From: Thelephora terrestris
Lineage: Eukaryota; Basidiomycota; Agaricomycetes; Thelephorales; Thelephoraceae
DNA: 64,000 bases
NCBI GenBank assembly: GCA_015956445.1
Contig: WIUZ02000013.1
Location: 1,116,001 to 1,180,000, forward strand
Reading direction: 5' to 3'
Shown here: one piece after another, positions 2,839-42,119 of the stretch
Layout of the letters: the number at the start of each line of letters is the position of its first letter
Numbering within the stretch: the stretch's first letter is position 1
Made by a program: the position numbers and the translations under genes
Notes under the pieces: model-generated
What the model was told of the DNA's origin: nothing
Seen by the model: the letters and a program-made list of their open reading frames with translations, nothing else
Databases searched by the model: none

Positions 2839-3734
2839 GTAGTCGACTACAAGGATTTCTTCGTAGAAATAGGGGTGGTGGTGTACCTTCCAGGGCGTTT
2901 CCCAGGAAAGGCTGAGCGCGCGTCAAAAATCTTGATAAAAAATACGTAAGAAAACGAGCGTACGTGCTTCTCCATTGGCGGGTGCAGGGGTCTAAAATAA
3001 AGCAGTGTTGCGTGTCCATGAGGGTACACCGTAGAGTAAGCAGTGTTCTGGGGGGGGATAAGAACTAGGGGAAGGGAGAAAGAGAAAGGAAAGCGAGAGG
3101 AACACGCTGGTGAAGCAATGCGAATGACAAATATTAAACGTGGGGAAGAAGGAAGCCATATACGTAATAAGTAATGATCCGGTGCCGAAAAGAAGGAGGC
3201 ACCAGGGTCTCGATCGAAACATTGTGATATACTAAAATAAAGTTTGATGGCTTGGTGAACTGTGTCAGGGCCACTCTTCGCCCTTCAGGTACCAGTGCTG
3301 TTGGTGAGTCGCAACTCCAACCAACAAGAAACAATGGGGCAAAGGGGGAACGACTTCCCTATATCCACCCAAAGTCTTCGTGGTCCAAAACGCGATGGAC
3401 GAGCGTTCTCCGGTAGGTTGTCCGAATTCACAGCAGGAGTGCCGAGCCTCTATCAGGTAGATCCCTATCGTCTTCTGAGGGCAGATACAAGAGCCCGAGG
3501 ATGGCGCCTCAAACTGATGACTTGATCCAAAGAGCAGTGCGGAACTCGATGTCGTGTCCGAGCTCGCTTCAAACACCGGTTAAGGATCAAGACTGAGTGA
3601 GAGAGGAGAGCGAACGGTTCAAGGAGTTACTCGATAAGCTCTTCAGTGGCCTACAGCAAATACACCGATGCTGCAAGGAGAAGAGGACTTCCCGAGATAT
3701 CAAAGATGGGGAGTCCTCAGCTACTCTACTGGTA

Positions 3735-3744
3735 CTTATATAAG
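3735..3744. promoter_or_regulatory. Palindromic TATA box CTTATATAAG in the LTR (copy at 12534-12543)
   Basis: This perfect 10-bp palindrome could position transcription in either direction: rightward for the LTR-borne gene or leftward for the retroelement. The related solo LTR keeps a similar block at the matching place (about 28050-28065, minus strand), including the shared AGTGGCC that follows. The role is inferred. Confidence 0.4.
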
Positions 3745-4193
3745 AGAGTGGCCGGGACATAGATAACCCTATCTAATAATAACTCGGAACAAAGAAGGGC
3801 CGAGAGTAAGCACGAACAGTAAGCGGCCCGGAGTATAGAATTGAAATGATAAAGGAATGACTAATGGGTCAGGGTTCGTGAGAGAATAAGAAAGGGGTCA
3901 TGACGTCGTGTGGGAAAGGAATGACAAAGGATAATATCACATGCAAGGGTGAACCAATGAGGGGACGACGCGTCAGCTCGTCCGATCGGGACAACAAAGG
4001 ACCGAGTGGGGCTTGAATATCGAGGGCGAATGTATAAGGAGTCTGGACCGGTGAAACGATGGGCCGAGCCAATGGCGAATAGGGCGCGAGCGCTGTCGAG
4101 GGTCGAATAAAGCGTAGTGCGAACCGGCCATTGGATCCATCAACCTCCCTTCTTCCCAAGTCAACAATCTCACCAACCAACTACTCATCCACT

Positions 4194-5944
4194 ATGCCCA
4201 TGATCTCCGACCGTGTCTTCCGTGCTGAGAACAGCACCGCTACCATCGAGTCTGCGGATCCGCGCTCCGTACAGAACAAGAGTTACTTCCTTCCGAACGC
4301 CAACGTGGCGTACCCTAGTTATCGCGAGGTGCGACGTCATGTGTCGCTGTTTGCTGGCAACAACTGACATCGCATCGTAGATCTTCGCGGTTGCCGCCAA
4401 AGTGGATGCTCGACAACTGGAGGCGACGATAGCCAAGCCTCCCAACTACTTGACCATAGACGACGAGCTGTGGTACCACAACTTGATCGACCACAAGTTG
4501 CAAGAGTCTATGCGCGGGGTCACGTTTGACACCGAGTTGCGTATGCCATGGGAGACTCCGGTGGCGTCATCGTTGTGGGGTCTTTTGAAGATGGGAATCT
4601 ACGATCTCGGAAACGGCGAGGGAAGGTGGCCGGGGGCGACTCGCTCGCAACATTATACAGCAGCCGTTGGTCACCGTCTTTGGTTCCTTTTGAGGACAGA
4701 ACAGAAAGCGGTGAGTCGGTCTGTGCATCCCGCTTGTGGGATAACACTGACAGGCTTGTAGAATGAGCGGCTGAAGCGTGAAGTGAAGGAAGCGAAGGAT
4801 GATGCCCGTAGGATGTATTCAGAAGCGTTGGACACGAAGAAGATGCTGCTCCTGATGAACGACACGCTTCGCGTCACGTTTGAGAGCGAGATGCTGGCGA
4901 TGCGTGAGGAACACAATCGATTAGTCGAGTCCCTGAAGGAACGGGATGACACCATCCAGCGGGACCTGATCGAGGTCGACCGACGGCTCAACCGTCATAG
5001 AAGGGCTTTGAATGAGCTCGACACCAAGGTCGGTGCGACTTCTCCTGGTCTTTATCCAAGAGAGCTCATGCCACTCCTAGGTTGATACGTTGGACGACGC
5101 CTTGCCATTATTGGGTGCTCGAGTCGAATCGATGAGCGAGCGGTTGTGCCATTGCCGCACTCGTTCGGTAGCTGCGGTTCGCGACGAGTCCGAGGATGAG
5201 TCGATACCCGATCGGATGGCTTCTCCCATAGGTGGGATGTCGGTTGACATATTTGGCTTGTCCACTGACATCTCTTCTTAGCTTCCGATGGGTCGTACCG
5301 CACACCTGCGCATACTGACGGCGGGGAGGAGGTCGTTCGCGAGACGTCCGAGGAGACGGCCGTGAATCCGGTTAGCAGTTCTCCCGAGTTGGAGTACGCG
5401 GGGGAGAACGAAGTGGCTGTTCCGATTCCGCCTCCGTCGATCTCGCCGGTGCGTGGGCAACGTTCTATCCGTGCTCGTCGTTGGGTTCCTTATCGCGGGG
5501 CACTTCGTCCAGTGCACCGCATGCGTCCCAGTAACCCCAACGCTGTCCGCCAGGGTGGAGACATTGAATCCACCGTCCTATTCCGATGCGATGACGCTAC
5601 AGTGTCGCGTGGATCGCGGCGAGCTGATTCCGGTGGAGTCCGTCGACGTGAACGGCTTAACCGACCTTACGCTCTTGTCGGTCCAGCGTGCAGCGGAGGC
5701 CGTTCGCCTGGTGGCTCAACTGACCGAGAGAGTGGAGGGTTGGTCAGTCCAGAGGACTCTGGATCAGACTATGGTCGATTCAGCGAGGAACCGCCTTCGC
5801 GCCGAGGTTCAGTTGGCCGTCGCTCATCGTCTGGAGGAAGCTCGGGTCGTCGAGATGGTCGACGAGGAAGTCGACGAGAATGCCTCGGAGGGGACGGAGG
5901 AGGAGGTTGCCAGTGCTGAGGAGTACTGGCAGACCAGGTCTTGA
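4194..5944 (+). CDS. LTR-borne antisense gene, coiled-coil protein of unknown function (copy 1)
   Basis: This is a series of open blocks on the plus strand, opposite to gag-pol. The blocks are separated by gaps of about 50-64 nt that begin GT and end AG with plausible branch sites. The first block starts at ATG 4194. A middle block is strongly charged and helical (E-V-K-E-A-K-D-D-A-R), predicted coiled coil. The last part is acidic and low complexity and is open in two frames, ending at 5919 or 5944. I recognise no known domain. The same order of blocks, with recognisable protein similarity, is present in the different LTR at 25215-28514, which argues that it is a real conserved gene rather than chance. 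Because it is antisense to the element's genomic RNA, its introns would survive retrotransposition. Exact splicing is unproven. Confidence 0.65.
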
Positions 5945-6319
5945 CGACCAGGGTTTGTACGCCTTAGTCCTCGTTCATAGAGTCTGGGCGGATTCAACTC
6001 CGTCGGTTTGGTAGTCTCATGTCTTCGCCGCGCGCCTTGTGTAATATCATCAGTGTCCTTGTCTGTGTTCCTTGATGACGTGTGAGTCGTGATAAAGGAA
6101 ATGATAAGATAAGAAAGGGGTATAGGTAAGGAAAGTGGGCGCAAGTTGGGTGTAAAAATGGTTCAAAAAGGGAATAAAATTCAGCACGCTGACAGGATCC
6201 TCCTTCTAGATTGACGCGTCTCGAGTCAATGGTCCAGTAGGCCAACTTGAGACTTCTGTGAGAGGACGTAAGGGAACGAATTCCATCTCGATGGCGTTGA
6301 TCTTTTTCTTTCCTCTTCT

Positions 6320-9300
6320 TCATCGCTTGGTAAGCTGTTGACCGGATTTGGAACCGTCGGCTAGTCGTCGCGGGGCGCTCGGGTGTTCCTGATAGAATTC
6401 CGAAACCATGTCCTGAGCGTTCTCGAGATCGACTTCGTCTTGCCACGAGTTTTCCGAATCGGGCCAGCCCAACCACTTGACCAAGAACTTGAGTTTCTTC
6501 CCAATGAACTTTGCGTCGAGAACCTTTTCGACTTCCCATTCTGGTTCTCCTTCGACAATGTCTGGAGGTGGACTGGGATGATTGGGGTTCTTTGGGTCTT
6601 CGTGATAGGCGTCAAGCTTTGAGACGTGGAAAACGGGGTGAACGTTCTTCCACTGTTGAGGTAACTCGAGTCGGTATGCGTGTGTTCCGACTTTGGCGAG
6701 GATCTTGAAGGGGCCAGATCTTCGCTCGGCGAGTTTCCGGGAAGGACGATTGATTGAGAGATCAGCGTTGTCGAGCAGGACCTTCTGACCTATTTCGAAC
6801 TGGGGGGTAGGACCTCGGTGTTTGTCATAGAAGCGTTTCATGTCGACTGCGGCTTGTTCGAGGGCTTTGGCGGTATCCTTCTGTACTTGATGAAGGTGTT
6901 CCACAAAGTCTTCGACCGATTCGATGGGAGAGTCAATCCGGGGTAGAGAACCAATGTGAGGGTGGTAACCGTAATTCGCATAGAAGGGGGTAGTTTTGAG
7001 TGACTTGTGATAACGGTTGTTCAGTGCGAATTCGATCACAGGTAACCAGTCGACCCAGTCGTCCTGATGAAAGGAGATGACTGTGCGTAAGGCTTGTTCG
7101 ACTTCTTGGTTGGTTCTCTCGGATTGTCCATCGGTCTGCGGGTGGTAAGCCGTAGAAAGAGCAGTCTCGATTTGAAGGTTGCGGTTGGCTTCTTTGGCAA
7201 AACGCGATGCGTATTGGGGTCCTCGATCAGAGATGATCTTGTCCGAAATTCCATGGAGTCTCCAGACGTTCTGAAGGTAAAGGTGGTACAGGCCTTCGGA
7301 ATCCAGGGTAGTGGTGGTGGGAGCTACGTGAACGATCTTGCCACGTTTGTCCGTAACGGTCCAAATTGCGTCGTAGCCTTTGCAGGGAGGCAAGCCGGTG
7401 ATGAAGTCGGTGGTAATGACTCCCCAGGGTCGTGGAGTTGGATCGATTGGCTTCAATTCTCCGTGAGGCTTCCTGCGGTGTATTTTGGTCCGTTGGCAAA
7501 TATCGCAATTACGTATCCACTCATCCACATCGTTGTAGAGACGCGGCCAGTAGTAGTCTCGTCGTACGGCCTGGAGTGTTGTGTCTCGTCCTGGATGTCC
7601 TGCTTCAGGTTCGGAATGGAGGGCGCGGAAGACGGTCTGTCGAAGGTGTTCCGGAATGTAGATCTTTCCTCGATAGGTCCATAGATCATGTGCTTTTCCC
7701 CAACCATCAGGGATTTTCGCGGTTTCTCCTTCCTTAGTGGTGTTAAAGGAAAGGATGAGAGGGTCCAATGCTTGAGCGTTGTACAGCTCTGTGAGTATGG
7801 TGGACTTAACTATCCGTAAAGCTGCGATGCGGTGGTCGGTGGTGATCTTTTCCGGGGGGATCATGACAATTTCCGGTTTGGGTACGTCTTCCCGTTTGTG
7901 GTCCATGCGTCGTGAGAGGTGGTCAGGGACTGAAGATTGTTTTCCGGGACGATAGACTAGCTTGTAGTCAAACTCCGATAGTAGATGATACCATCGAGTT
8001 TGTCGGTCGTCCAGTTGTTGCTTGTCCATAAAATAAGTTAAATTCTTGTGGTCCGTAAGAATCATAAAGGGGGTCTTGGTTCCGGACAGCCAGTGTCGGA
8101 ATTCCTTGAGGGCGTTAATGATTGCGAGTAGTTCGCGGTCGTGAACGGCATAACGTGTTTCTGCATCATGGAATCCTTTCGATAGGCAACCCACTGGACG
8201 CCATTTGCCATCGTCTTGTAGCTGAGAAAGCATCGCTCCCCAGGCGTACGCCGAAGCGTCGGTCTCTAGGAGGAACGGTTTTTCTTGGTCGGGGTGAGCA
8301 AGGCAAACGTCGTTAAGCAGGGTGTCCTTGAGTTTCTGATAACTCTGTTGTTGGGTAGGAGTCCAGGACCAGGGCACGTCTTTTCGTAAGAGGTCGTTAA
8401 GGGGTCGTGCGACATTAGAGAAATCGCGGATGAAACGTCGATAGTAGTTCATCATTCCCAGATAGGAACGAAGTTCGGAGACAGTGGTGGGGATCGGCCA
8501 ATCGCGAATACCAGAAAGTTTGACGGGGTCGGGACGGATACCGTCACCGGAGATTATGTGACCAAGGTAAGGGATTTCCGATTGGAGGAATTCGCACTTT
8601 TCGGCTTTCAGCGACAAGTGGTGTTCTCGGAATACCTTTAAGATCTCTTTGACGACTTTAATATGAAAGTCTTCGTCAGAAAGTTTTCCGGTGGGGTCAG
8701 ATCCAGTTCCGATTCCGACGTCGTCAATGAACGTGCTGGTGTCGCCTCGACGAATGTAGACAATGAAGATGGAGTTCATCATTGCCTGGAAGGTTGCCGG
8801 CGCATTGGTAAGACCAAAGGTCATGACCAACGATTCGTAGAGTCCTCGGTTGGTAATGAACGCAGTTTTCCATTCGTCGCCCTTCTTCATACGGATGTTG
8901 TAATATCCCGACCGAACGTCCATGGCGGAGAAGTATTTGCAGCCTTTCCATTTCTGGATAAGCTCGTCTATTCTCGGCAGGGGGTAGACGTTCTTGACGG
9001 TGATGTCGTTCAACTTGCGGTAGTCGATGACCATCCGTTTCTTTCCGTCTTTCTTGTTGATGAAGAAGACCGGGGAGGCAAGGGGCGAATCAGAAGGTCT
9101 GATACGTCCGTTCTTGAGGTTCTCGTCGAGAAATACGTCGAGTTCCTTTTGTTCGTCGTAAGAGAGGGGGTAGATTCGGGGTTTCCACTTCTTGGTTTCC
9201 CAATCGTCCTTGAGCTTGATTTCGTGATCGTATTCACGGTGTGGGGGGAGAGCCTGATAATTGGATTCTTCGAATACGTCGACGAACTCTTGAAAGGGGC

Positions 9301-10042
9301 CGGCTCGGATGTCTTCAACAGTTAGAACTTTCTTTTTCTTGAAGTCTTCCATAGCCCAGGTTGTAGCGTTGTGGCCTTTCGAGTGAGGGTCGTGATAGAC
9401 GTGTCGAATGTACTCGGAGACAGCAGGTTCTGCCGTGATGGAAGCTCGATCTAGTTGTTCCTGGAAACGTTGGAGTGGGGATACACCGTTTCTGCAGCTG
9501 GAAGGACAACGGGTGAATTCCAACTTTCCGGAACGCCAGTCGATAAGAGGATTGTGGGAGCGAAGCCAGGTCATTCCAACGATTAAGGGTTTGGTACCGA
9601 TATCGGTGACGAAATACCATTCCTGTGACGTATGTCCTTGGATCTTGGAGGTAAGTCTGGCCTCGTGAGTGATAGCGGAAGCGTTAGGTGAATCATCGGC
9701 GTTAAAAGCGTACACCGGGTAGTTCAGCTTGCGAGTGGGGATAGAGTTGTCTTCAACGAACGATTTGGAAATGTAGAGGGATTGAGCGCCTGAATCGAGG
9801 AGCGCTTCGGTGATGAATTTGTGACCACGAGTATCTGTGATCTCGAGTTTCAACGTAGGAAAATCCACGGTGTGTCGTGACGGTGTTCTGTAGAGGGCTT
9901 TGGAGGCAATCGCTGCGAGTTGTGTGGAGAGGGGAAAACATGATTGCAACTTCTTTTCCATAACGGATACTAGTACATCGGGAGTGGGAAAAGAATCATA
10001 TAACGCGCGCGATTGTGTAGATAAAATGGAGGGGGGACTCAT
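6320..10042 (-). CDS. Pol polyprotein of the chromovirus, with chromodomain
   Basis: This is a frame of 1240 residues. An aspartic protease motif D-S-G-A lies near residue 82. It is followed by reverse transcriptase (Y-R-K-L-N-D block, F-I-D-D active site), RNase H (E-T-D-A-S), the integrase zinc-binding HHCC region and a D-D-E catalytic core. A C-terminal chromodomain (E-W-E-V-E-K-V-L-D, then V-K-W-L-G-W) follows at roughly residues 1150-1205. Protein functions are proteolytic processing, cDNA synthesis and integration. The chromodomain is thought in this clade to guide integration to particular chromatin. Gag lies immediately upstream in a separate frame. Confidence 0.95.
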   Translation of the reverse strand: MSPPSILSTQSRALYDSFPTPDVLVSVMEKKLQSCFPLSTQLAAIASKALYRTPSRHTVDFPTLKLEITDTRGHKFITEALLDSGAQSLYISKSFVEDNSIPTRKLNYPVYAFNADDSPNASAITHEARLTSKIQGHTSQEWYFVTDIGTKPLIVGMTWLRSHNPLIDWRSGKLEFTRCPSSCRNGVSPLQRFQEQLDRASITAEPAVSEYIRHVYHDPHSKGHNATTWAMEDFKKKKVLTVEDIRAGPFQEFVDVFEESNYQALPPHREYDHEIKLKDDWETKKWKPRIYPLSYDEQKELDVFLDENLKNGRIRPSDSPLASPVFFINKKDGKKRMVIDYRKLNDITVKNVYPLPRIDELIQKWKGCKYFSAMDVRSGYYNIRMKKGDEWKTAFITNRGLYESLVMTFGLTNAPATFQAMMNSIFIVYIRRGDTSTFIDDVGIGTGSDPTGKLSDEDFHIKVVKEILKVFREHHLSLKAEKCEFLQSEIPYLGHIISGDGIRPDPVKLSGIRDWPIPTTVSELRSYLGMMNYYRRFIRDFSNVARPLNDLLRKDVPWSWTPTQQQSYQKLKDTLLNDVCLAHPDQEKPFLLETDASAYAWGAMLSQLQDDGKWRPVGCLSKGFHDAETRYAVHDRELLAIINALKEFRHWLSGTKTPFMILTDHKNLTYFMDKQQLDDRQTRWYHLLSEFDYKLVYRPGKQSSVPDHLSRRMDHKREDVPKPEIVMIPPEKITTDHRIAALRIVKSTILTELYNAQALDPLILSFNTTKEGETAKIPDGWGKAHDLWTYRGKIYIPEHLRQTVFRALHSEPEAGHPGRDTTLQAVRRDYYWPRLYNDVDEWIRNCDICQRTKIHRRKPHGELKPIDPTPRPWGVITTDFITGLPPCKGYDAIWTVTDKRGKIVHVAPTTTTLDSEGLYHLYLQNVWRLHGISDKIISDRGPQYASRFAKEANRNLQIETALSTAYHPQTDGQSERTNQEVEQALRTVISFHQDDWVDWLPVIEFALNNRYHKSLKTTPFYANYGYHPHIGSLPRIDSPIESVEDFVEHLHQVQKDTAKALEQAAVDMKRFYDKHRGPTPQFEIGQKVLLDNADLSINRPSRKLAERRSGPFKILAKVGTHAYRLELPQQWKNVHPVFHVSKLDAYHEDPKNPNHPSPPPDIVEGEPEWEVEKVLDAKFIGKKLKFLVKWLGWPDSENSWQDEVDLENAQDMVSEFYQEHPSAPRRLADGSKSGQQLTKR

Positions 10043-10208
10043 CGGGGCCTCTGTGACGACAAGTCCTTTTAAAAATCCTGTTCTTCGACGGGGGTGTCGA
10101 AGGGTCCTTCTTCAGCGAGGTACGTGCTGTAAGGATCTTCTTCTTCGTCGACTTGTGAGATGGGGGGTTCTTCTTCTTCCTGATCCTCCTCCTGGGCTTC
10201 GACATCCC

Positions 10209-11768
10209 CTACTTCAGCCGCCTCGAACCTTTCGACCAGTTGAGCGATATGGTGCTCGGAGATCTGGGCGAGGGGCGTGGTACAGGCGTTCTTGAAGTGG
10301 CCGGGTTGGCGAGGGGCGTGGTACAGGCGTTCTTGAAGTGGCCGGGTTGACCGCAGCGATAACAGACAGATCTGCTGGCAGAGTCTGGACGCTGGTATCC
10401 GGTCTTTCCTGGCTTGGAGGAATCCTTGCCTTGAGAGGGTTTAAACTGTCCTTTCTCTCGTGGCTTCGAGGTCTGCTGAGGACGTTGCGGATGAGAGTAA
10501 CTTGGGCCTGGTGCTCCGACTTTCTGAGGGGCAGGACGACCTTTCCTGTTGAACGTGGGTTTGATGTGGGTGGACTGCACCGCACTGATGTCCATTGGTT
10601 CACCGTAGTAAACCTGGTCATTCTGGGGAGCCGCACGTCGAGGAGTGTACTGGAAGCTTTGTCCTCGGTTAAGATTGTCCCTGGAGGTCCCGTGGTTGAA
10701 CGTCTTCATCTGTCGTTCCGACATGATGTTTTGGTAATGGGAGTTGGCGCGTGTGCACCAATCCAGATAGGTGGTCGGGATTGGGAGTTGTCGACAGATG
10801 AGTGCCTTCAAGTAGGGGTTTGTAGCCGCCTTGAGGTACATGAAAGCTTGGGCCTGCTGGGTGCCCGATTCGCGTGTGAGTCGATCGAACTCGGCTTGGA
10901 AGGAGGGCCATGGCATCTTCCCTTGTTGAAGCTGGGTAAGCTGTACGAAGTAATTCTGCTTCTTTTCGGGGACGCCAAAGTGTTCGTCGAATGCCGCAGC
11001 GAACAGGGACCAGTCGTCAAAGTAATAGTCGTTGTCTCTCATGCTGGTGACTGCTCCAGCGACTTGTTGAGCCCATTGAGATTCTGGCCATCCGTTGATC
11101 AAAGAACAGGCCGTAAGGATCCTGGTTTTGGCTGCCTTCATCGATTCCGGCTTCTGAGCGAAGTAGGTCTCGAGGGATTGGATGAAGGGATCGGCATGGT
11201 TGGCTCTACCGTTGAAAGGGTCCGGTAGTTTAATCGCCTTGATGTCCTTGCCGGTGCCAGGGTATTCCTTGAAGTTCGTGGGGACGCCTAGTCGTGCCGT
11301 AGTGATAGGATTTGGTACAGGAGCGGGTGGCGCACGTCCTTGTTGAAGCGCAGTAAGGAGGTTTTGCCACTGGTCGGGAGCAGGAGGGTTAGCCGCATTT
11401 AGTTGTTGTTCTAGCCCTTCGATGCGTTGGCGGGCTTGCTCGGCTACATCCGCGTGGCCTATTAATCCTGCCTCGAGTTGTCTCCTGTGTCTGGTTTCTT
11501 CTGCCAGGGTCTGCCCAAGTAAGCCTAGGAGGGTTACTGACTGTACGGGGTCTCGAAGGTCGTATCGTTGGCCTTGACTGTCTTCGAACTCGTAAGGTTG
11601 CAGTTCTGGGCGTTCTGGTCGATCCATGGCAGGTGGTAAGGAGGTAGTACGGACGAGAGGGGTAGGAGCTCTTGACGTGTGTTGGGAGGAAGGAAGTCCG
11701 GTGCGTAATCGCCTCGGAGTGGGAGGTTGCCCGCTTTGGTAAGGGTTTTCCCACGGTCGGTCTGACAC
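10209..11768 (-). CDS. Gag of the chromovirus
   Basis: A 519-residue frame just upstream of pol on the minus strand. The central part carries the Ty3/gypsy gag capsid-like region (around residues 160-330), followed by a basic, glutamine- and proline-rich stretch. A CCHC zinc knuckle (C-Y-R-C-G-Q-P-G-H-F-K-N-A-C) lies near residue 470. It forms the particle and binds the genomic RNA. How pol is expressed relative to gag (separate initiation or recoding) cannot be told from sequence. A coiled N-terminal segment precedes the capsid-like part. Confidence 0.93.
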   Translation of the reverse strand: MSDRPWENPYQSGQPPTPRRLRTGLPSSQHTSRAPTPLVRTTSLPPAMDRPERPELQPYEFEDSQGQRYDLRDPVQSVTLLGLLGQTLAEETRHRRQLEAGLIGHADVAEQARQRIEGLEQQLNAANPPAPDQWQNLLTALQQGRAPPAPVPNPITTARLGVPTNFKEYPGTGKDIKAIKLPDPFNGRANHADPFIQSLETYFAQKPESMKAAKTRILTACSLINGWPESQWAQQVAGAVTSMRDNDYYFDDWSLFAAAFDEHFGVPEKKQNYFVQLTQLQQGKMPWPSFQAEFDRLTRESGTQQAQAFMYLKAATNPYLKALICRQLPIPTTYLDWCTRANSHYQNIMSERQMKTFNHGTSRDNLNRGQSFQYTPRRAAPQNDQVYYGEPMDISAVQSTHIKPTFNRKGRPAPQKVGAPGPSYSHPQRPQQTSKPREKGQFKPSQGKDSSKPGKTGYQRPDSASRSVCYRCGQPGHFKNACTTPLANPATSRTPVPRPSPRSPSTISLNWSKGSRRLK

Positions 11769-12061
11769 GTTGGAAGAACAGGGGGTGAGAGGGTTGTAAA
11801 GGAGGTGGGAGCCGAATTAGAAAAAGATGAGTGCTCCGATGGTGAGGAAGAGAAACATTGTGGAAAGAGGGGGGGGGTTAAGAAGGTTGTTGTCCTAGAT
11901 CAGTTCTAGTGGACTGTTTGACGTGTTCGATTCCTCTCGAGCTATTCCTAGCAGCGATCTGCTTCTTCTGCTACCAGTCGTTAGTCGTCGACCAATTTAT
12001 CTGCAGTGAGCGTGATCCAGTAGTTTGGTGAACAGGGTACTGGCTGGTATCTTTGATATAA

Positions 12062-14993
12062 TGTCAGGGCCACTCTTCGCCCTTCAGGTACCAGTGCTGT
12101 TGGTGAGTCGCAACTCCAACCAACAAGAAACAATGGGGCAAAGGGGGAACGACTTCCCTATATCCACCCAAAGTCTTCGTGGTCCAAAACGCGATGGACG
12201 AGCGTTCTCCGGTAGGTTGTCCGAATTCACAGCAGGAGTGCCGAGCCTCTATCAGGTAGATCCCTATCGTCTTCTGAGGGCAGATACAAGAGCCCGAGGA
12301 TGGCGCCTCAAACTGATGACTTGATCCAAAGAGCAGTGCGGAACTCGATGTCGTGTCCGAGCTCGCTTCAAACACCGGTTAAGGATCAAGACTGAGTGAG
12401 AGAGGAGAGCGAACGGTTCAAGGAGTTACTCGATAAGCTCTTCAGTGGCCTACAGCAAATACACCGATGCTGCAAGGAGAAGAGGACTTCCCGAGATATC
12501 AAAGATGGGGAGTCCTCAGCTACTCTACTGGTACTTATATAAGAGAGTGGCCGGGACATAGATAACCCTATCTAATAATAACTCGGAACAAAGAAGGGCC
12601 GAGAGTAAGCACGAACAGTAAGCGGCCCGGAGTATAGAATTGAAATGATAAAGGAATGACTAATGGGTCAGGGTTCGTGAGAGAATAAGAAAGGGGTCAT
12701 GACGTCGTGTGGGAAAGGAATGACAAAGGATAATATCACATGCAAGGGTGAACCAATGAGGGGACGACGCGTCAGCTCGTCCGATCGGGACAACAAAGGA
12801 CCGAGTGGGGCTTGAATATCGAGGGCGAATGTATAAGGAGTCTGGACCGGTGAAACGATAGGCCGAGCCAATGGCGAATAGGGCGCGAGCGCTGTCGAGG
12901 GTCGAATAAAGCGTAGTGCGAACCGGCCATTGGATCCATCAACCTCCCTTCTTCCCAAGTCAACAATCTCACCAACCAACTACTCATCCACTATGCCCAT
13001 GATCTCCGACCGTGTCTTCCGTGCTGAGAACAGCACCGCTACCATCGAGTCTGCGGATCCGCGCTCCGTACAGAACAAGAGTTACTTCCTTCCGAACGCC
13101 AACGTGGCGTACCCTAGTTATCGCGAGGTGCGACGTCATGTGTCGCTGTTTGCTGGCAACAACTGACATCGCATCGTAGATCTTCGCGGTTGCCGCCAAA
13201 GTGGATGCTCGACAACTGGAGGCGACGATAGCCAAGCCTCCCAACTACTTGACCATAGACGACGAGCTGTGGTACCACAACTTGATCGACCACAAGTTGC
13301 AAGAGTCTATGCGCGGGGTCACGTTTGACACCGAGTTGCGTATGCCATGGGAGACTCCGGTGGCGTCATCGTTGTGGGGTCTTTTGAAGATGGGAATCTA
13401 CGATCTCGGAAACGGCGAGGGAAGGTGGCCGGGGGCGACTCGCTCGCAACATTATACAGCAGCCGTTGGTCACCGTCTTTGGTTCCTTTTGAGGACAGAA
13501 CAGAAAGCGGTGAGTCGGTCTGTGCATCCCGCTTGTGGGATAACACTGACAGGCTTGTAGAATGAGCGGCTGAAGCGTGAAGTGAAGGAAGCGAAGGATG
13601 ATGCCCGTAGGATGTATTCAGAAGCGTTGGACACGAAGAAGATGCTGCTCCTGATGAACGACACGCTTCGCGTCACGTTTGAGAGCGAGATGCTGGCGAT
13701 GCGTGAGGAACACAATCGATTAGTCGAGTCCCTGAAGGAACGGGATGACACCATCCAGCGGGACCTGATCGAGGTCGACCGACGGCTCAACCGTCATAGA
13801 AGGGCTTTGAATGAGCTCGACACCAAGGTCGGTGCGACTTCTCCTGGTCTTTATCCAAGAGAGCTCATGCCACTCCTAGGTTGATACGTTGGACGACGCC
13901 TTGCCATTATTGGGTGCTCGAGTCGAATCGATGAGCGAGCGGTTGTGCCATTGCCGCACTCGTTCGGTAGCTGCGGTTCGCGACGAGTCCGAGGATGAGT
14001 CGATACCCGATCGGATGGCTTCTCCCATAGGTGGGATGTCGGTTGACATATTTGGCTTGTCCACTGACATCTCTTCTTAGCTTCCGATGGGTCGTACCGC
14101 ACACCTGCGCATACTGACGGCGGGGAGGAGGTCGTTCGCGAGACGTCCGAGGAGACGGCCGTGAATCCGGTTAGCAGTTCTCCCGAGTTGGAGTACGCGG
14201 GGGAGAACGAAGTGGCTGTTCCGATTCCGCCTCCGTCGATCTCGCCGGTGCGTGGGCAACGTTCTATCCGTGCTCGTCGTTGGGTTCCTTATCGCGGGGC
14301 ACTTCGTCCAGTGCACCGCATGCGTCCCAGTAACCCCAACGCTGTCCGCCAGGGTGGAGACATTGAATCCACCGTCCTATTCCGATGCGATGACGCTACA
14401 GTGTCGCGTGGATCGCGGCGAGCTGATTCCGGTGGAGTCCGTCGACGTGAACGGCTTAACCGACCTTACGCTCTTGTCGGTCCAGCGTGCAGCGGAGGCC
14501 GTTCGCCTGGTGGCTCAACTGACCGAGAGAGTGGAGGGTTGGTCAGTCCAGAGGACTCTGGATCAGACTATGGTCGATTCAGCGAGGAACCGCCTTCGCG
14601 CCGAGGTTCAGTTGGCCGTCGCTCATCGTCTGGAGGAAGCTCGGGTCGTCGAGATGGTCGACGAGGAAGTCGACGAGAATGCCTCGGAGGGGACGGAGGA
14701 GGAGGTTGCCAGTGCTGAGGAGTACTGGCAGACCAGGTCTTGACGACCAGGGTTTGTACGCCTTAGTCCTCGTTCATAGAGTCTGGGCGGATTCAACTCC
14801 GTCGGTTTGGTAGTCTCATGTCTTCGCCGCGCGCCTTGTGTAATATCATCAGTGTCCTTGTCTGTGTTCCTTGATGACGTGTGAGTCGTGATAAAGGAAA
14901 TGATAAGATAAGAAAGGGGTATAGGTAAGGAAAGTGGGCGCAAGTTGGGTGTAAAAATGGTTCAAAAAGGGAATAAAATTCAGCACGCTGACA
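12062..14993 (-). repeat. 5' LTR of the chromovirus (2932 bp)
   Basis: Same length as and almost identical to 3263-6194, offset by 8799 bases. It is the 5' LTR because gag starts next to its left edge on the minus strand. I saw no clear tRNA-type primer-binding site in the bases left of 12062, so priming may be of another kind, for example self-priming as in Tf1-like elements. Confidence 0.95.
12993..14743 (+). CDS. LTR-borne antisense gene, coiled-coil protein (copy 2)
   Basis: Second copy of the coding region described at 4194-5944, in the other LTR, with the same block structure and intron-like gaps. A transcript from this copy would read outwards from the element into the flanking outer element, while copy 1 reads inwards against pol. 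The function is unknown. Both copies may be expressed, or only the one with a suitable terminator. Confidence 0.62.
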
Positions 14994-15157
14994 AACTGGA
15001 GAAGGGTGTCATCATCGGAAGTCCCATGATGAGATGATGAAATGTATGAATGATGAAAAGTCCGTTTATTCCTTGGTTGAACGAACGAAGGGGAAGGGAA
15101 TAATGGGGCGTCGTAAACATAGGGGTGGCAAGGTAGGGAATACCGTACATAGGGTAA

Positions 15158-15412
15158 TTAAACGTTCCCAGAGTACTTGTCTGCTGCCCTCTTTAAAGTA
15201 TCCAGCCGTATAGTAACCTTGCGTAATATACTTTCCTCGCTGTCATGGGGGCCAAGGACTAGGGGTACCTCGAAAAGGGGGTGGACGATGTACATTACTC
15301 CTGCTCCTTGATACATGTAAGTCCAAGCTTGACGTGAGATCAGTTTTCGGGCGCTCTTCTTGGTCTTTAAGTATTCCAGGGCTTCGACGTCAGTCTTCCA
15401 GCCCTGTCCCAT
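15158..15412 (-). CDS. Small unknown protein, paralogue 2 of the outer element
   Basis: This is an 84-residue frame with E-A-L-E-Y-L, S-A-R-K-L, Y-I-V-H-P-L-F and a D-S-E-E-S-I-L tail. It is clearly related to the 2599-2838 frame, from which the chromovirus insertion now separates it. Upstream (15531-15590, minus) is a short segment ending in a D-P-K-T-H-Q-W motif matched upstream of 2599-2838. A short N-terminal exon is therefore possible. The family is not recognised. Confidence 0.5.
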   Translation of the reverse strand: MGQGWKTDVEALEYLKTKKSARKLISRQAWTYMYQGAGVMYIVHPLFEVPLVLGPHDSEESILRKVTIRLDTLKRAADKYSGNV

Positions 15413-15845
15413 GTAATCGATGAGAGGTACGGTGTCTTATCGGTGGTACTCGTCTGAGCTTGGTGGGGTAGGGTTGATACTGGGGCCGATTTGAGGTCAG
15501 AGTGTTAAAATGTTGTGCATAGCGTAGAGCTTACGCTAGTTCCCATTGATGCGTTTTGGGATCTTGAACGTAGTAAACCAATTTTACTCCCATGATTTCC
15601 GATGTGTAGGTTTCTGGGTGTGCTGAGTGGGAATATGGAAGGTGGACACAAAGACAAAAATTGTGAGAGGTTGTTTGTTGTAACATGTCGTTTTTTAGTC
15701 GTGACGTGGCATGTTTTATGAAACAATTACTAGTATTCTTATCTTTTTCCAACAAGGTAGCAATTTTAATAGGGAAAAGATAAGATTGGAAGAATGCTCC
15801 GATACTAGTTTGTCAACTAAAAATGTGTGCAATTTTTACTAAGGC

Positions 15846-16142
15846 TTAAGATGGGCGACAATGAGGGGAGGGAAGATTAAGGGACTTCTGGTACTCGATT
15901 TGCTCAACAAAAAATTCCTTGGTGGTTGTGGGGTGGAGAAGGAACGGGCATTCAAGGATTTCGTGATATACCCAAATACTCTCCCAGGTAACTTGGCGTT
16001 GATTGTTGGCCTTCTTGAAAATTTGCTGACGTACATTCGGATTTTCAAGGAGGTAGTCGAGGATGTCAATGGGGGTTTGAGGCTTCATGTTAGAGGGAAT
16101 AGGGATGATGACGCAGTCCCCATTAGTGAAACCAAAGTCCAT
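15846..16142 (-). CDS. Small unknown protein, paralogue 1 of the outer element
   Basis: A frame of about 98 residues from the ATG at 16142; it stays open further upstream to 16328 without another clear start. It shows T-P-I-D-I-L-D-Y-L-L, a basic stretch, W-V-Y-H-E-I-L-E-C-P, then a T-K-E-F-F-V-E-Q-I helix. This is the same order of elements as the other three small frames of this element. The function is unknown. Four tandem diverged copies in one retroelement suggest repeated local duplication and retained usefulness. Confidence 0.5.
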   Translation of the reverse strand: MDFGFTNGDCVIIPIPSNMKPQTPIDILDYLLENPNVRQQIFKKANNQRQVTWESIWVYHEILECPFLLHPTTTKEFFVEQIEYQKSLNLPSPHCRPS

Positions 16143-20527: not shown

Positions 20528-20590
20528 TTGGTGGTCGCCTTGCCCTGGTAAGTCGTGGTTCAGACTTGGTCGGACTAGGCTGACTACCCT

Positions 20591-23500: not shown

Positions 23501-25189
23501 CCCTGCCACATTGACTGGTATCTTGATCAATCCATCCCTGGGCACTGTTACTGTAGGCTCCACAAGGTCTGTTTCATCTTCTTGATCATAGTCTTCTTCA
23601 TCTTCTGATTGTTCCTGGACTACAGCTTGAAATGGTTGCTGTTCCTCCTTCTCAATCACCTCGGCGAGGAGGCCAATTTTCTGCTGCATTGGGACAGAGA
23701 CCTCATGCCCTTGTTTCATTGCGCTCACAAGGCCTCGTCGCAAAGAAGGCGCAGCATCGATTGCTTCCTGTACAGTTAGGGTAATGTTGGTGTTTAGTAT
23801 TTTAGTGGCAATTGCTGAACTGTCTGGCTTCTTGGTAGTCCTGGGATTAGTGACTTTGGGACCATTGGTTTGCTCCAAATGCGCCGAGTGCTTCCTATTG
23901 TAGTTAGTAGGCTTTGCAGTGACCTCCTGGTCAACCTCCATTGGAAGCAACTGGTTGTCCGTTTTACCTTTAATTATGCCCTTGTTGGGGTTAGAGGCAG
24001 ACCGGATGTTCCCCGTCTGGTTGCTGTTAAGATTGACGTGATTCTTGATTGGGTGCTGTGGCCTACCAGGACTCTTTGCTTCCCTGCTCCTGGGGAGCTT
24101 CTCCATCCCTTGGGGTCGGCTAGGTAAGACTTGCTGTACCTTCTTCCTGTGTTCCTTGCTGATTTGGGTGGTCCTTTCAACACCAAAAGCTTGACAGTGT
24201 TCTACCTCCCCAGAGGTCCATCCTAATTCCGCTTCTTGTTCATCAGTATCAGCATCGTCTTCATACCTATCCACTCCTATGTAGTTACATGCAGTTTCCA
24301 AAGTAGGGTTGTATGGCAAGGCTTCAGCATAATGGACTTCAGCTGCAACATGTTTAGTAATAGCTTGTATCCATGTCTCATTAGGTGCTCGGTAGATTCT
24401 TGAGTTGTCAGGCCACTGTAACCGTCCTGACGTTGGGTCCTTTACTATCTTCCCAGCTTTTACCAATTTGTAAATTTCCTCACATGCCCTAATGTGGTGA
24501 CCCTGCTGTCCACAACCAAAACAGGTGTAGTTCTGTCCAATTGCGTTGGGGCCTGTTGCCATAGAGAAACTTTGAGGAGGGGGTTGAGACATTCTCTGGG
24601 GTGATGGATTGAAAGGTGGTCGATAGGAGGGATTTGGTCCTTGTCGTGACTGGGGGTTGGTGAATTGTTGGTTGCCAAGGTTCTGATGAGGTGGTAGTTC
24701 CCTCTGGAATGGTCTTCTAGGTTGATTTGGTCTTGCTGAGTTTCGGTTAGGAGGAGGTTCTACGTAATTCTGGAGATGTGGGTACTGCTGAGCAAAGTGT
24801 ACATATTTGACCCAGTACTTGGGGTCATCAATCTTGAGGTTACTCAGGTCGTCCACTAGCTGGTTGAAGTCTTCATCCTGCTTTCCTTTGTGCTTCTTGG
24901 TCTTTGTGGGTAACTTAGGAGGAGATTTAGGTGGAGTCAGGGGTGACTTGTGTTGGATAAGAGGCTTTGGTTCATCATCTGATTCGTCTTCTGAGTTATA
25001 TCCTGAGAGCTTAAATGGCTTAGTGGATTCCTCTTGGTCTGACTCTTCTTCTTCAGAGGACTGGTATCCGCCTTTAGTTGCCAGGTGCTGATCAAACCTA
25101 TAAGGGTTAAGGACTGAATCAGCTCCTTCTACTATGTCTGCAATGCTGAATGGCACTGTCACATCTAAGTGAGGCGTGACCATCCTCAT
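20591..25189 (-). CDS. Gag/protease frame of the outer element
   Basis: A frame of 1532 residues. The first ~60 residues look like the end of a gag capsid region. A CCHC zinc knuckle (C-F-G-C-G-Q-Q-G-H-H-I-R-A-C) lies near residue 225. A retropepsin-like domain with the F-D-S-G-S active site lies near residue 570, with G-R-E-W further on. The remaining ~800 residues are acidic and low complexity, include three imperfect ~50-residue repeats around an H-G-K-H core (about 21640-22100), and end in a cysteine cluster C-Y-C-G-C-R-K-C. No reverse transcriptase follows. The gag region extends upstream beyond the solo LTR insertion at 25215-28514. Confidence 0.85.
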   Translation of the reverse strand: MRMVTPHLDVTVPFSIADIVEGADSVLNPYRFDQHLATKGGYQSSEEEESDQEESTKPFKLSGYNSEDESDDEPKPLIQHKSPLTPPKSPPKLPTKTKKHKGKQDEDFNQLVDDLSNLKIDDPKYWVKYVHFAQQYPHLQNYVEPPPNRNSARPNQPRRPFQRELPPHQNLGNQQFTNPQSRQGPNPSYRPPFNPSPQRMSQPPPQSFSMATGPNAIGQNYTCFGCGQQGHHIRACEEIYKLVKAGKIVKDPTSGRLQWPDNSRIYRAPNETWIQAITKHVAAEVHYAEALPYNPTLETACNYIGVDRYEDDADTDEQEAELGWTSGEVEHCQAFGVERTTQISKEHRKKVQQVLPSRPQGMEKLPRSREAKSPGRPQHPIKNHVNLNSNQTGNIRSASNPNKGIIKGKTDNQLLPMEVDQEVTAKPTNYNRKHSAHLEQTNGPKVTNPRTTKKPDSSAIATKILNTNITLTVQEAIDAAPSLRRGLVSAMKQGHEVSVPMQQKIGLLAEVIEKEEQQPFQAVVQEQSEDEEDYDQEDETDLVEPTVTVPRDGLIKIPVNVAGTMMTGVFDSGSQLNIVNQRLIETAGIPWSNAEEHRIPMMSVDGNLSQCAGMIPCAEMTMKTTKGRVMAPGNLYVKKNAGFQLLLGREWGVDHKATWIEDGRNSHLRIITNKGWRKIRPLPSTYGSRDNEEDNRNFRYQPKDYQARVYAVGGNKEIEEGEIPDSEEEEGSLVIGSNMADVETEALEERENDFIYSPVTIAREDPPTPAQRREALVLDEDDRRSETDDEIGRIGTEEDLRKPEETRAEKETEEYSDEDINGWSNENIISSDLYETYIKMVRKGASDEEWNALCKLERKKAACDQKPWTRLCSEDLENEDRAAKNDPAPHEAELSTRPHPESPQPSQTLATPEPDPPSTLPTSRKRRWSLKEEDQSTIAKVTRMRRTRKLTEKAQGDEFRRYLQTFERQDQKQVKGRKRPVVVEACAFATEAVPGNRHADLDSADNELENEWEREFNKTALTNVEKILEPSRMDMDGSDDLESSPNSPGGPDEEDDERSNQQKITDHGKHKNDISELTDTRNVWRPMGMERDGSNDPGSSPNNLEGPSIDEEESSAESRLTDHGKHEENISELTMRYGKLETIQEEWNRSDDPGSRPNRFEESSTDEEDENEEQWLPDHGKHRSNISRLFPRRYTSAENNGPNDKYKRPTLDKGKVAHEPVEEWEPYQAGTKEDNKKPRRRQAPNDTTFGTGSRSLPGGNHAVYGEQYRQDPREAGLDILREYPDAFNYDPDNNNIEQTYVPEPSEPAVPKKRIRVFGSEFKSKTPEDNEVMWNVMEQDELEGVLDELSRDLMVANEEIRTYTISKSDDGTIEVRRGLPAKNGGNGPSTQDPEKSNQGKEDKDVSDTDEETKKAEEETLTKLGSDPQTSDHASESEAHMERKKGSETCTTGGDPVETFVHLEKDRTTKEIKLLGAPEGIKEVELTLDEISPNLEEQPQESVKTEPTSNGECYCGCRKCPAPNNPQQQSRNDP

Positions 25190-25214
25190 CTGGGCTTCAA
25201 CTTGTCTCCTGAAA

Positions 25215-28200
25215 TGTCAGGAACATGGTATTTTTAAACTTTTTATAACACGCTCTTTCTTCGAACTCTTCTTACCAATCCTTATGTTTTGAATGCTTCG
25301 CCCTCCTTATCCTTCACACCAATCATTCGAAACACACACACGCGCATACTATTCCCAGCGAATCCACAACGAGCTATACAAGTGCTATCCTAATCCCATC
25401 AAAAGTCGACTCTATCTACGGCAGGCCTGAAGGTCATCAACTGTCCATCTCGGAGATCGTAGTGCTGGCCCCTCCTTGCTAGGACCTCCCCGAACATGGC
25501 ATCACCATCTTCGGCACTCAGCTGAACGACCAGTTCAAGCCGATAAGAAGAGATACCTTCGAGCGGACCGATCAGCCTCCCAGATGTCACCGAACTGCTG
25601 AACACCTGGTCCCACATCTCCATCACCGGGTGACTGCTCGACAGTACTGTCGACGTAGTCGGCAAGCGACCCTCCGTCTCCCTCGTCGGACCCCTGGGTG
25701 GGATCCTGTCTTGCGAGTCGAAGCTGGTGGCGAAGCTGGATCTCCGACTCGACCTGTCGGTAGGAACGGTTGACCCGATAGCGGAACTCTCGTCCTCCAC
25801 CTCGACCAGACTGGTCACCATCCGACTCAACTGGACGAGGGTAGGGATTAGCCGATGGAGCCATGCGATGAGCAGGGCGGCGTCGAGAGCGTTTGCATCG
25901 TTGCCCCTTAGTCACCGGACGTACCTCGGCGACCCTCGGAGCATCTTCAGCTCGGTCAACCTCCATGACCTCATCCTCGATCTTCACCAACTGATGGATC
26001 GGCTGCAAGACGCAACGCCCACAGTTCTCCTTGTCGGACGGGGCCAAGGTGGAAGCCGGACCTGGAGTCGGAACGGGAATCGCGTTCTCGATCGGAGGCG
26101 TCGCATAGGACGACGGGTTAGGCGATGGGAGTACCACCTCGTCGGCGTACTCCAACTCGAACGGAACATCGGCTGTCCCCTGACCAACCAATTTGGGACC
26201 CTCCTTACAGTTACAGGTCTTGTCCTGCAAGGACTCGACCTGCGCTGTCAACACAGCCACCACGTTCTCGAGTTCTTCGGTCTAGGAAATGTCAGCTTTC
26301 ATCATTTTAAGCAATGATGAAAGCGGCATTACCTTTTCATCCCTCCTGGCCAACGCCCCCTTAATGTTGTTATCCCTAACCTTCAACCCAGCGATCAACT
26401 CCTGATGGTTGGCGACCATCGCCTCCAACGCCTCGTTCGTCCCTTGCTGAAAGGCAGCCAAGGTCTCCTTCATTTGAAGACCCTCCGCTGACAGACGTAG
26501 GACGTCTGCCTTCGCCTCCTTCACCTCACGCTCCAATCGTTCAACCTAGGCAGTTTGATTAGTCGAGAGTCATACTCGAATATTCAAACGGAGAACCTAC
26601 TTTGCTCTCCCCTTCCCGAACGAGCGACCACAACAACGACGTGGCAGCAGTGGCATGGCGGACGGCCCGAGGAATGGTTGCCCCGTGCTCCAATAGGTCC
26701 TGATCGTAGATTCCCCTCTGCAGGGTGTACCAGAGCTCCTTCTTGATCGGATGCTCCAACTCCCCGAACCTACCCCTCATTCGGAAGGCCACCTTCTCGG
26801 CGATGATCGTACGGACCCAGAGCTCGTCGTCCCAGGTCAATCCCATCAAGTGAGGGATCGTCTCCCGGAGACGTTCGGCGTCCACCTCCGTAATGACCTC
26901 CAAGATCTAGAAGCCGTTAGCTGGACATCAACGCCCAAAAGAACGTAACCTCTACCTAGAGGAAGGCGTTAGTGCTAGTACACGAAGCTCTAGGTCTCCC
27001 CCATACCTGGTCATCCGTGGTATAGGGAGTCCCAGCCGCACAGGCGTAGGACTTGCGGGCGGCGGCACGACGGTCGATGCGAGAGATGGTGGAGATACCA
27101 TTGGCAACTTTGTAGGTATGGTTGTTGGGGAAAGACATGTTGTGGTAAGATGATGGGGAAGTTGCTGGTGTTGCTGATCAAGGATGGCTCCAAGAAGACG
27201 TCCTTCTTATAGCCTAGATCGGTGATCCTTCACGTGACCTACCTCGACGAACCTCATTGGTCCGGGTCACATCAACTTCCGCCCCTGTACCATCATCATC
27301 AGCTTACTACATCAAGCTGACACCTCGGCCCGCGGGACGGCCTTGGAAGAACTTCGTTCCGGAACGCCTAGAACGCGCGCGCACTAAAAATAGGTCTCAA
27401 GACCCTGATGACCCCTTAATGACATCACGAACCCCTTTTACGACCCCTCATGACTTTACGATTACGATCAACCCTGGACCCTGATCACACACGTGGACAG
27501 TCACATCACAGTCTCCTAACCGGAGGAAGGACTCGCCGCTATTCGGAAGCATCGCCTTAGGATCCTTCTGGTTAGCCCAGCACATGTGGAGTAGCCGTTA
27601 GCGTGAAACGCCGGCGAATCTGTAATCCCTCATGTCCCATGAGTCTAGGCTCGACCTCCTCATGTTCGGACGTACGTTGAGGTTGCCACTAGTCCGTGAT
27701 GCTGTTACCGCCTACAGACAACAAGGGATGTTTGCATGGCTCTACTCCCGAATCCGCTGGTACAACTATGTAAAGGGAGATTGCCACCTGACCCTTGGGT
27801 GTGATCCCCAGGTACGAACTTTCATGACCCCATGCCCCTATTTCTTTTAGGACTAGTGTTATCTTTACCCCTATGTTTCATGCGGACATTCCTTATCTTT
27901 TATGCAATCCTTCACACGCTAGTAAGGCCCTTTGTCTTTTATTCTCCCACGCGTCACCTTTGTTCGCTTCCCTTACTTAGCGTTCTCACGCTCCTTATCT
28001 CCCTTTGTTCGGACTTGATAAGGGTATATTAGGGTATTGACGTCATGGCCACTCCTTTAGTATAAGTAGCAACTGTGGCTGTATCGTAGTACCTTAGTTT
28101 TGTTACCTCAGGAAATCCTCTGCCCTTCTCAGCCCAGTTGCAGTTAAGGCCAAGTCAGAGTTTCTTGTTTGATCCAAGACATCCCCCATCTGCTCTCCCT

Positions 28201-28514
28201 CCCGCTCTGCGCGTCAACTGCGCCTCGTAACTATAGACTCCCAGCAGTCATATTAGAACACCTCGAGCGTCCAGTCGATCAACTGGTGGAGTCATCAATC
28301 CTGTCGTAGAGATCAACCCTTGTTTGTTAAACCGAACGAAGTACGGTTTAGGTTGGGTTTCTCTTTAGGATCTCGACCTGACTTGTAGTGACCTCGGACA
28401 ACCTACCGGAAGAATAGAGACGTGATCGTTCTCTCACAAGCTAGTTGGACTAGTGAGTACTCTGCGGAGTCGGCTCAGTGCACTGGTAGTTGTTGGGGTA
28501 GAGTGGCCCTGACA
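25215..28514 (-). repeat. Solo LTR (3300 bp) inserted in the outer gag gene
   Basis: On the minus strand it starts TGTCAGGGCCACTCT, like the chromovirus LTR, and ends CCTGACA. It is bounded by a perfect 5-bp duplication, TGAAA on the plus strand (25210-25214 and 28515-28519). No partner LTR or internal region of this family is present, so it is a solo LTR left by recombination. It is related to, but clearly diverged from, the 2932-bp LTRs at 3263 and 12062, and carries a homologous coding region. Confidence 0.9.
25399..27138 (-). CDS. LTR-borne coiled-coil gene of the solo LTR (homologue of 4194-5944)
   Basis: Open blocks on the minus strand start at ATG 27138 and are separated by short GT...AG gaps. 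The second block (about 26600-26900) shares W-D-D-E-L-W, G-I-Y-D and an aromatic tail with the chromovirus LTR gene. The third (about 26320-26550) is a coiled coil beginning R-E-V-K-E-A-K, identical in those residues to the chromovirus version. The final block contains F-E-L-E-Y-A and is again open in two frames (ending 25535 or 25399). Orientation relative to the LTR ends is the same as in the chromovirus. No known domain is recognised. Confidence 0.62.
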
Positions 28515-29130: not shown

Positions 29131-29148
29131 CCCTCGCCGTGGGCTCCA
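29131..29148 (-). promoter_or_regulatory. Primer-binding site of the outer element
   Basis: Two bases inside the 5' LTR, the minus strand reads TGGAGCCCACGGCGAGGG. Starting with TGG, it fits the complement of a tRNA 3' end (...CCA). The donor tRNA is not identified. This supports a minus-strand orientation for the element. Confidence 0.6.
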
Positions 29149-29150
29149 GA

Positions 29151-41988: not shown

Positions 41989-42119
41989 GGCATTTAGTCC
42001 TCTTCTATGCTAATAGCTGAATTTGAACACCTCAATCATGAGAACGACTCTGAGGGGGTCAGGTTGGATTCAAACCCACCCCATATGATATTCCTAGATG
42101 ATCGTTACGGAGGGGTTAG

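Follow-up and report, generated by a model that had tools for sequence, protein, structure and literature searches.

A predicted multi-exon gene antisense to gag-pol inside the long terminal repeats of two sister retrotransposon families of Thelephora terrestris

Solo long terminal repeats (LTRs) are usually taken as promoter debris, and the question raised by the DNA analysed here is whether, in the ectomycorrhizal fungus Thelephora terrestris, many of them are intron-bearing protein genes. The stretch (64,000 nucleotides of contig WIUZ02000013.1, henceforth the window) contains a chromovirus with LTRs of 2.93 kb (family 1) and a solo LTR of 3.30 kb from a sister family (family 2). The original prediction, made from the letters of the window, was that the LTRs of both families hold an intron-containing coiled-coil gene that runs antisense to gag-pol. 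Comparison with copies from the whole genome (40.6 Mb, 60 contigs) confirmed this at the level of sequence: both LTR families carry what is predicted to be one homologous multi-exon gene in that orientation, and we regard it as practically certain that it is a real gene under selection. Even many leftover solo LTRs are scattered copies of it. The LTRs and gene models are listed below; frame A is the frame of an exon model of 1521 nucleotides (nt) that includes intron 5 (model A), and frame B is the spliced frame after that intron.

3263..6194, minus strand: 3' LTR of the chromovirus, which reads on the minus strand; 2932 bp, TG..CA ends, target site duplication (TSD) AACTG
12062..14993, minus strand: 5' LTR of the chromovirus, 2932 bp, with the second gene copy (coordinates +8799)
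25215..28514, plus strand (gag-pol sense would be plus): solo LTR of the sister family 2, 3300 bp, TSD TGAAA
4194..4328, plus strand: family-1 exon 1; ATG in 36/36 copies, donor GT in 35/36 and GC in one
4381..4710, plus strand: family-1 exon 2 with the DDELW block, from conservation across copies
4762..5028, plus strand: family-1 exon 3 with the REVKEAK coiled coil, from conservation across copies and predicted structure
5081..5231, plus strand: family-1 exon 4, from conservation across copies
5282..5448, plus strand: family-1 exon 5 with the ELEY block, from conservation across copies
5449..5512, plus strand: family-1 intron 5, 64 nt, GT-AG in 36/36, frame A protein-constrained; presumably an optional intron
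5513..5944, plus strand: family-1 exon 6, frame B, acidic tail, stop at 5942-5944; frame A is also open to 5919
12993..14743, plus strand: the same family-1 gene in the 5' LTR, exons at +8799 (coordinates by offset)
27007..27138, minus strand: family-2 exon 1, start codon at 27138
26601..26906, minus strand: family-2 exon 2
26333..26545, minus strand: family-2 exon 3
25925..26281, minus strand: family-2 exon 4
25831..25924, minus strand: family-2 intron 5, 94 nt, frame A protein-constrained
25399..25830, minus strand: family-2 last exon, frame B, stop at 25399-25401

The gene was followed through 36 full-length LTRs of family 1 (34 fetched, from 44 matches, plus the two of the window) and 18 of family 2 (17 fetched, from 50 matches, plus the one of the window), and it is present in all of them. 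These are the best-scoring matches, among which older, broken copies are under-represented; five partial family-1 copies were excluded from the 36, two of them (L046 and L047) being used in other comparisons. The gene lies on the plus strand in the chromovirus LTRs and on the minus strand in the solo LTR. Family-1 introns are of 50–64 nt and all GT-AG. Introns 1, 2, 3 and 5 agree in position and phase between the families, intron 4 being found in family 1 only, and the proteins are homologous as had been proposed: their frame-A versions share 29% identity over most of their length (expectation value E 2e-32), and the annotated forms 31% over residues 1–347 (E 4e-32). At the DNA level the families resemble each other only at the terminus, in 23 nt of U5, in the RNA-start block and in parts of the second and third exons (E up to 0.08). 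The open blocks with GT...AG gaps described originally were recovered, except that the last block consists of two frames joined by a further intron. A single-frame last exon (506 residues) as the sole form is ruled out by the annotated proteins and the phase switch, and a later A-to-B intron, for which candidates were seen, is not needed. A diverged LTR copy, L047, is without intron 4, the frame being maintained there (by eye in the alignment), and has a stop in exon 2.

Evidence that a protein is encoded comes from the pattern of variation. The spliced frame (493 codons in family 1, 479 in family 2) is open in 36/36 and 18/18 full-length LTRs, in line with the selection claimed for both families. 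ATG, stop and splice sites are kept in all sampled LTRs save for the one GC at the first donor, and no real stop codon and no frameshift was found in the gene among the 54 sampled copies. Across the 36 family-1 LTRs there is no indel in the 1521 nt of model A vs 47 events in the other 1411 nt (including two trimming artefacts, in L037 and L040). Variants present in at least two of 35 family-1 copies are mostly synonymous in the spliced frame (200 vs 33 non-synonymous), where the local non-coding spectrum predicts about 156 non-synonymous changes. Some stop variants in such tallies are stops only on the majority background, and real codons were counted separately. The omega-like ratio of shared variants was 0.08 in the true frame (model A), 2.7 and 5.2 in the shifted frames, and 2.3, 0.17 and 10 in the reverse frames, the value of 0.17 belonging to the reverse frame with common free third positions. 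The predicted introns of family 2 coincide with phase shifts of the free third position, and an indel-free run extends from 26311 to 25399. It could be argued that the open frames are a by-product of antisense or regulatory constraint on the DNA, with no protein made, and the low shared variation at all codon positions in 5622-5921 would suit such an origin. However, three-base periodicity switches phase at the introns in both families, third positions are free to vary, and frameshifts are absent from the 54 copies. We rejected this explanation on the codon-phase tests with shifted and reverse frames, and find it hardly credible. The propagating lineage is under strong constraint at the protein level.

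This constraint differs with the frequency of the variants. For exons 2–4 of family 1 the sample was enlarged to 64 copies (40 extra copies minus 12 interrupted or partial ones; 63 copies for variants), and of 14 diverged loci five entered the codon-phase analysis while nine were excluded as interrupted or partial. Of the 64 uninterrupted copies, 59 are intact, with one indel event in 747 exon nt vs eight in 103 intron nt. Broken copies include L065 (frameshift), L103, L107 and L109 (one real stop each), L097 (lost acceptor) and L102 (34-nt deletion). The omega-like ratio was 0.54 for variants found in one of the 63 copies, 0.34 for those in two, and 0.05 both for those in three to five and for those in at least six; 189 of the 212 variants in at least three copies were synonymous (omega-like 0.05). 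Singletons gave 0.32 in exons 1–4 of 35 copies vs 0.54 in exons 2–4 of the 63, which include older ones; the latter value falls between constrained and neutral, and singletons still include unsampled inner branches. As common variants are constrained and singletons relaxed, selection appears to act mainly during element propagation, and the simplest reading is constraint while the lineage propagates followed by relaxation after insertion. Relaxation among singletons tends to favour selection on the element over selection on each resident copy. Nothing was found in favour of control of the host, which the original prediction had offered as one possible function, though no test aimed at it was made. 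Were the LTR genes a domesticated multigene family, selected by the fungus as its own, intact frames would be expected in resident copies, and they are indeed found in 54/54 sampled LTRs (most of them solo by duplicated flanks) and in 59 of the 64. However, the relaxation of singletons, greater in the larger sample that also holds older copies, argues against domestication, as do the stops in exon 2 of 11 of the best 150 family-1 matches listed (best 150 per family, from first-look candidates numbering 568 in family 1 and 601 in family 2), and we consider it quite improbable.

The internal region of the chromovirus contains two coding regions.

10209..11816, minus strand: gag, with a zinc knuckle and a weak Retrotrans_gag match
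6320..10111, minus strand: pol, with protease, reverse transcriptase (RT), RNase H, integrase and chromodomain, from domain matches

The element (3263-14993) is flanked on both sides by the 5-bp TSD AACTG and its LTR pair (3263-6194 vs 12062-14993) shows one mismatch in 2932 positions. The pol frame matches RVT_1 (2.6e-31), RNase H (9.3e-36), Integrase_H2C2 (8.9e-22) and Chromo (2.8e-11, residues 1192–1241), the integrase core rve giving 25.5 bits, under its cut-off of 32.6. Having RT, RNase H and an integrase with a C-terminal chromodomain, it is a chromovirus (Ty3/gypsy). An 801-nt pol probe from the window, which would miss much diverged or lost pol, matched 11 genomic places, three at 97–100% (family 1) and eight at 72–73%. 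All eight of the latter are flanked by family 2 LTRs, and these pol-bearing places led us to reject family 2 as a "solo-only" family. In 11/11 pol-bearing places the LTR gene and pol lie on opposite strands, so that the predicted antisense orientation holds throughout. In one genomic region (G000:C23:1030848-1049773) two pol regions lie between three LTR genes, as if two elements share the middle LTR.

A 14-base exact LTR terminus common to both families occurs 581 times in the genome (reversed control, 0). For every pol-bearing copy there would thus be roughly fifty LTRs without pol, provided that the probe missed few, and with 11 places against 581 termini the majority of gene copies are probably in solo LTRs. 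The solo LTR of the window has TGAAA on each side, and identical 5-bp flanks were found in 29/34 fetched LTRs of family 1 and in 13/17 of family 2. The excess of termini and the perfect TSDs would also be expected if solo LTRs were mobile units that spread with no full-length stage. Recombination between 3-kb LTRs, however, yields the same picture, and an excess of solo LTRs is usual in fungi. With its introns still in place, the gene gives no sign of having passed through its own spliced RNA, and we know of no route by which a lone LTR could move, which makes such mobility very improbable. In the flanks of L010, L013, L034 and L037, family-1 LTRs were seen by eye to be nested within family-2 LTRs.

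The LTR proteins match depositor-annotated spliced "hypothetical proteins" (BJ322DRAFT) of T. terrestris, which form clusters of 51, 40, 37, 31 and 27 members, among others. Large groups of hypothetical proteins in the annotation of one ectomycorrhizal fungus are thus LTR genes and, should genes of this kind be common, some of the orphan genes in basidiomycete genomes would be retroelement code. The introns of the gene are established by this annotation together with conservation. Annotated lengths are 493 residues in the family-1 cluster of 51 and 480–486 residues in most of the large family-2 clusters. One annotated protein (P0002, 718 residues) is a fusion of a family-2 LTR gene with the 3' half of a family-1 gene, probably from nested LTRs. 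AlphaFold predicts a long coiled coil at residues 151–250, with a block-mean predicted local distance difference test (pLDDT) score of 80–95. Descent from gag or pol was rejected, the protein having no match to its own gag (best E 2.0) or pol, and no bZIP family was among the Pfam matches up to E 1 for either protein. Three protein searches listed matches in T. terrestris alone, a weak test of species range that says little because gag, for which relatives are expected elsewhere, also matched only T. terrestris.

The annotated proteins splice out intron 5 (5449-5512 in family 1, 25924-25831 in family 2), and therefore the reading frame changes there. Frame A inside the intron is nevertheless protein-constrained: 12/20 variants are synonymous in family 1 (expected share 0.31, p 0.007) and 17/24 in family 2 (expected share 0.25, p 4e-6). 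Frame B downstream is constrained too (26/35 synonymous in family 1, 19/29 in family 2). Arginines abound in the retained segment of both families (GQR..R.RR..RP.HRM), where K+R stand to D+E as 10 to 2 in 42 residues and 16 to 6 in 63 residues, and the spliced tail of family 1 has an isoelectric point of 4.4. From these patterns we consider it likely that intron 5 is optional, alternative splicing giving a basic tail when it is retained and an acidic one when it is spliced.

The position of the gene within the LTR depends on where the genomic RNA starts, for which the following features are relevant.

12049..12059, minus strand: primer-binding site (PBS) of self-priming type adjoining the 5' LTR, 11 nt complementary to LTR sequence
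3697..3707, minus strand (12496-12506 in the 5' LTR): 11-nt PBS complement, likely 5' end of the genomic RNA and U3/R boundary
3736..3743, minus strand (12535-12542 in the 5' LTR): TATA-like box for the genomic RNA
28061..28106, plus strand: family-2 TATA-like box at 28061 and 12-nt PBS complement at 28095-28106
3708..4193, no strand: region between divergent start sites, putative bidirectional promoter

The PBS of family 2 was taken from the flank of another family member (L052). On the gag-pol strand the complements of 11 and 12 nt sit about 30–36 nt downstream of the TATA-like box, and shuffled leaders matched as long in 4/500 (11 nt) and 1/500 (12 nt) cases. Judged by sequence, both families appear to have the self-priming layout of Tf1-type elements, in which the PBS is complementary to the predicted 5' end of the RNA of the element itself. 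Unlike those of T. terrestris, the LTRs of Tf1 are short and are not known to contain a gene. The T. terrestris element resembles Tf1-type elements in the complementarity of its PBS to the presumed 5' end of its RNA, and it has a chromodomain; self-priming is described in the available part of PMC2864245. We infer starts of the genomic RNA at about 3707 (family 1) and 28095 (family 2), and because of this the antisense gene, which starts at 4194 and 27138, would lie wholly inside U3. The two inferred start sites point away from each other across 486 bases in family 1 and about 960 in family 2.

What could such a gene do for the element? The explanation that we favour, and which as a whole is reasonably probable, is a spliced cellular-style gene antisense inside U3 of two sister, seemingly self-primed chromovirus families. 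RNA polymerase II would transcribe it from a promoter common with the genomic RNA start, in the opposite direction (3708-4193). The product may be an oligomeric coiled-coil protein whose tail is set by intron 5, acidic when spliced and arginine-rich when retained, and it could be a nuclear protein that regulates its own LTR, in transcription or in relief from silencing, and aids propagation of the element. An element-promoting nuclear regulator is the role that fits the sequence data best, although our doubts slightly outweigh our confidence in it. The genomic RNA would hold the gene in antisense, since the gene is complementary to U3; its introns are not splice sites on that RNA and therefore would survive reverse transcription. 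The suggestion that antisense placement protects the introns follows in this way from the anatomy, and illustrates a way for an element to take introns through reverse transcription. As U3 is copied to both ends in that process, each new insertion would receive two gene copies, one of which would stay in a solo LTR after LTR-LTR recombination. That constraint is strong before insertion and fades afterwards suggests that the protein serves the copy that is propagating, and preferably in cis, because otherwise several hundred solo LTRs would supply the protein.

Several observations weigh against the regulator and its splice-switched tail. Supply in trans by solo LTRs predicts weak selection on the active copy, and the selection observed is strong; most solo copies would therefore be silent, or the protein would act in cis. 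Frame A past intron 5 stops at varying points, so that the retained-intron protein is not uniform, and in 25830-25731 of family 2 neither frame is clearly constrained (p 0.15 and 0.85). Outside the coiled coil AlphaFold gives no confident fold (with 4 or 25 sequences). No Pfam family exceeds its cut-off for the family-1 protein, Pfam gives weak coiled-coil-type matches for that of family 2 (best E 0.0035), and the PDB search found no convincing chain (best E 0.7), so that neither fold nor matches point to a biochemical role. The intact copies, moreover, come from the best-scoring matches, and older copies carry stops, as in the 11 family-1 exon-2 matches mentioned above (0 of the best 150 in family 2).

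A bolder version, possible but doubtful, is a splice-switched coiled-coil regulator with an acidic or a basic tail, encoded in its own promoter repeat, made in antisense from a bidirectional LTR promoter and active in trans, every intact solo LTR that recombination leaves being a working regulator gene. If true, several hundred "dead" LTRs would be a dispersed multigene family acting on living elements or on nearby host genes. The protein might, on the contrary, restrain its own element, the many solo LTRs exerting copy-number control like that of Ty1 p22. Its dose would grow with LTR number (581 termini vs 11 pol-probe places), and Ty1 offers a precedent: in the partial accounts consulted, p22/p18 is an element-encoded regulator of copy number, gag-derived and in sense orientation. 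The T. terrestris protein is not gag-derived, however, and strong constraint on the propagating lineage is hard to square with a pure inhibitor, so that we judge self-limitation unlikely. The question whether antisense accessory genes aid their element or hold it back could be put to a natural test in these LTRs. An accessory factor of the particle or of the pre-integration complex (packaging, nuclear import or targeting), with no role in transcription, would agree with a coiled coil joined to an arginine-rich tail in one form, and a nuclear location is given for some antisense proteins of plant elements in the available text of PMC7264820. Yet there is no sequence link to gag or pol and nothing direct in its favour, and we would not expect this role to be the true one.

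The coding frames of the retroviral antisense genes HBZ, of human T-cell leukaemia virus type 1 (HTLV-1), and ASP, of human immunodeficiency virus type 1 (HIV-1), lie outside the LTR, unlike the T. terrestris gene. The sag gene of mouse mammary tumour virus (MMTV), like the T. terrestris gene, codes for a protein inside the LTR, but on the sense strand, and its product is a superantigen. HBZ and ASP are driven from the 3' LTR, and HBZ, which has a spliced and an unspliced form, is of the bZIP type (PMC10186651, in part), whereas the T. terrestris protein has no bZIP match. There are likenesses also with the antisense additional ORFs (aORF-3R) of plant Ty3/gypsy elements (Grande gene23, RIRE2, Retand and PvRetro13). 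In the part of the review PMC7264820 available to us, such ORFs are placed between pol and the 3' LTR in plants and in the fungal Boty, nuclear localisation being noted; Retand is also covered in the consulted part of PMC11963269. The same portion of PMC7264820 presents the aORF-3R as antisense to gag-pol, conserved in most copies and of no clear similarity to other proteins, one product being nuclear and one having an SMC domain. The T. terrestris gene is likewise antisense and conserved in most copies, but it is not placed between pol and the 3' LTR: it lies (4194-5944) inside the LTR (3263-6194). It also differs from the aORF-3R in being doubled per element, kept in solo LTRs and interrupted by four or five introns. 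A fungal counterpart is brtn of Boty/BcGypsy1 from Botrytis cinerea (Zhao 2011, as cited in the part seen of PMC8365987), an antisense additional gene of an LTR element that, by the description in the PMC7264820 excerpt with which it was compared, is internal, between pol and the 3' LTR, and not in the LTR. In view of brtn, the remark in the original prediction that no such family was known in fungal chromoviruses is not supported as worded, although brtn has that internal placement. Among the papers listed by a literature search, with subscription journals mostly outside it, none was seen to describe a protein gene of several exons contained entirely within an LTR. Antisense accessory genes were already known, then, while placement wholly inside the LTR with introns appears to be new.

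Other repeats were seen in the window. A 1.43-kb direct repeat (545-1977 and 29143-30564, 99% identical) encloses both LTR insertions and also long minus-strand frames of 1541 and 717 residues, with a weak zinc knuckle. No RT was found in the four frames scanned, and the pair is possibly a large pol-less element, though the repeat ends are not TG..CA. Inverted repeats of about 1.25 kb (30939-32186 and 36618-37866, 99.8% complementary) surround 4.4 kb that contain a tetraspanin-like frame (34891-35781). Finally, a tandem duplication (42029-44180 and 44614-46765, 77% identical) has one DUF4246 frame in each half.

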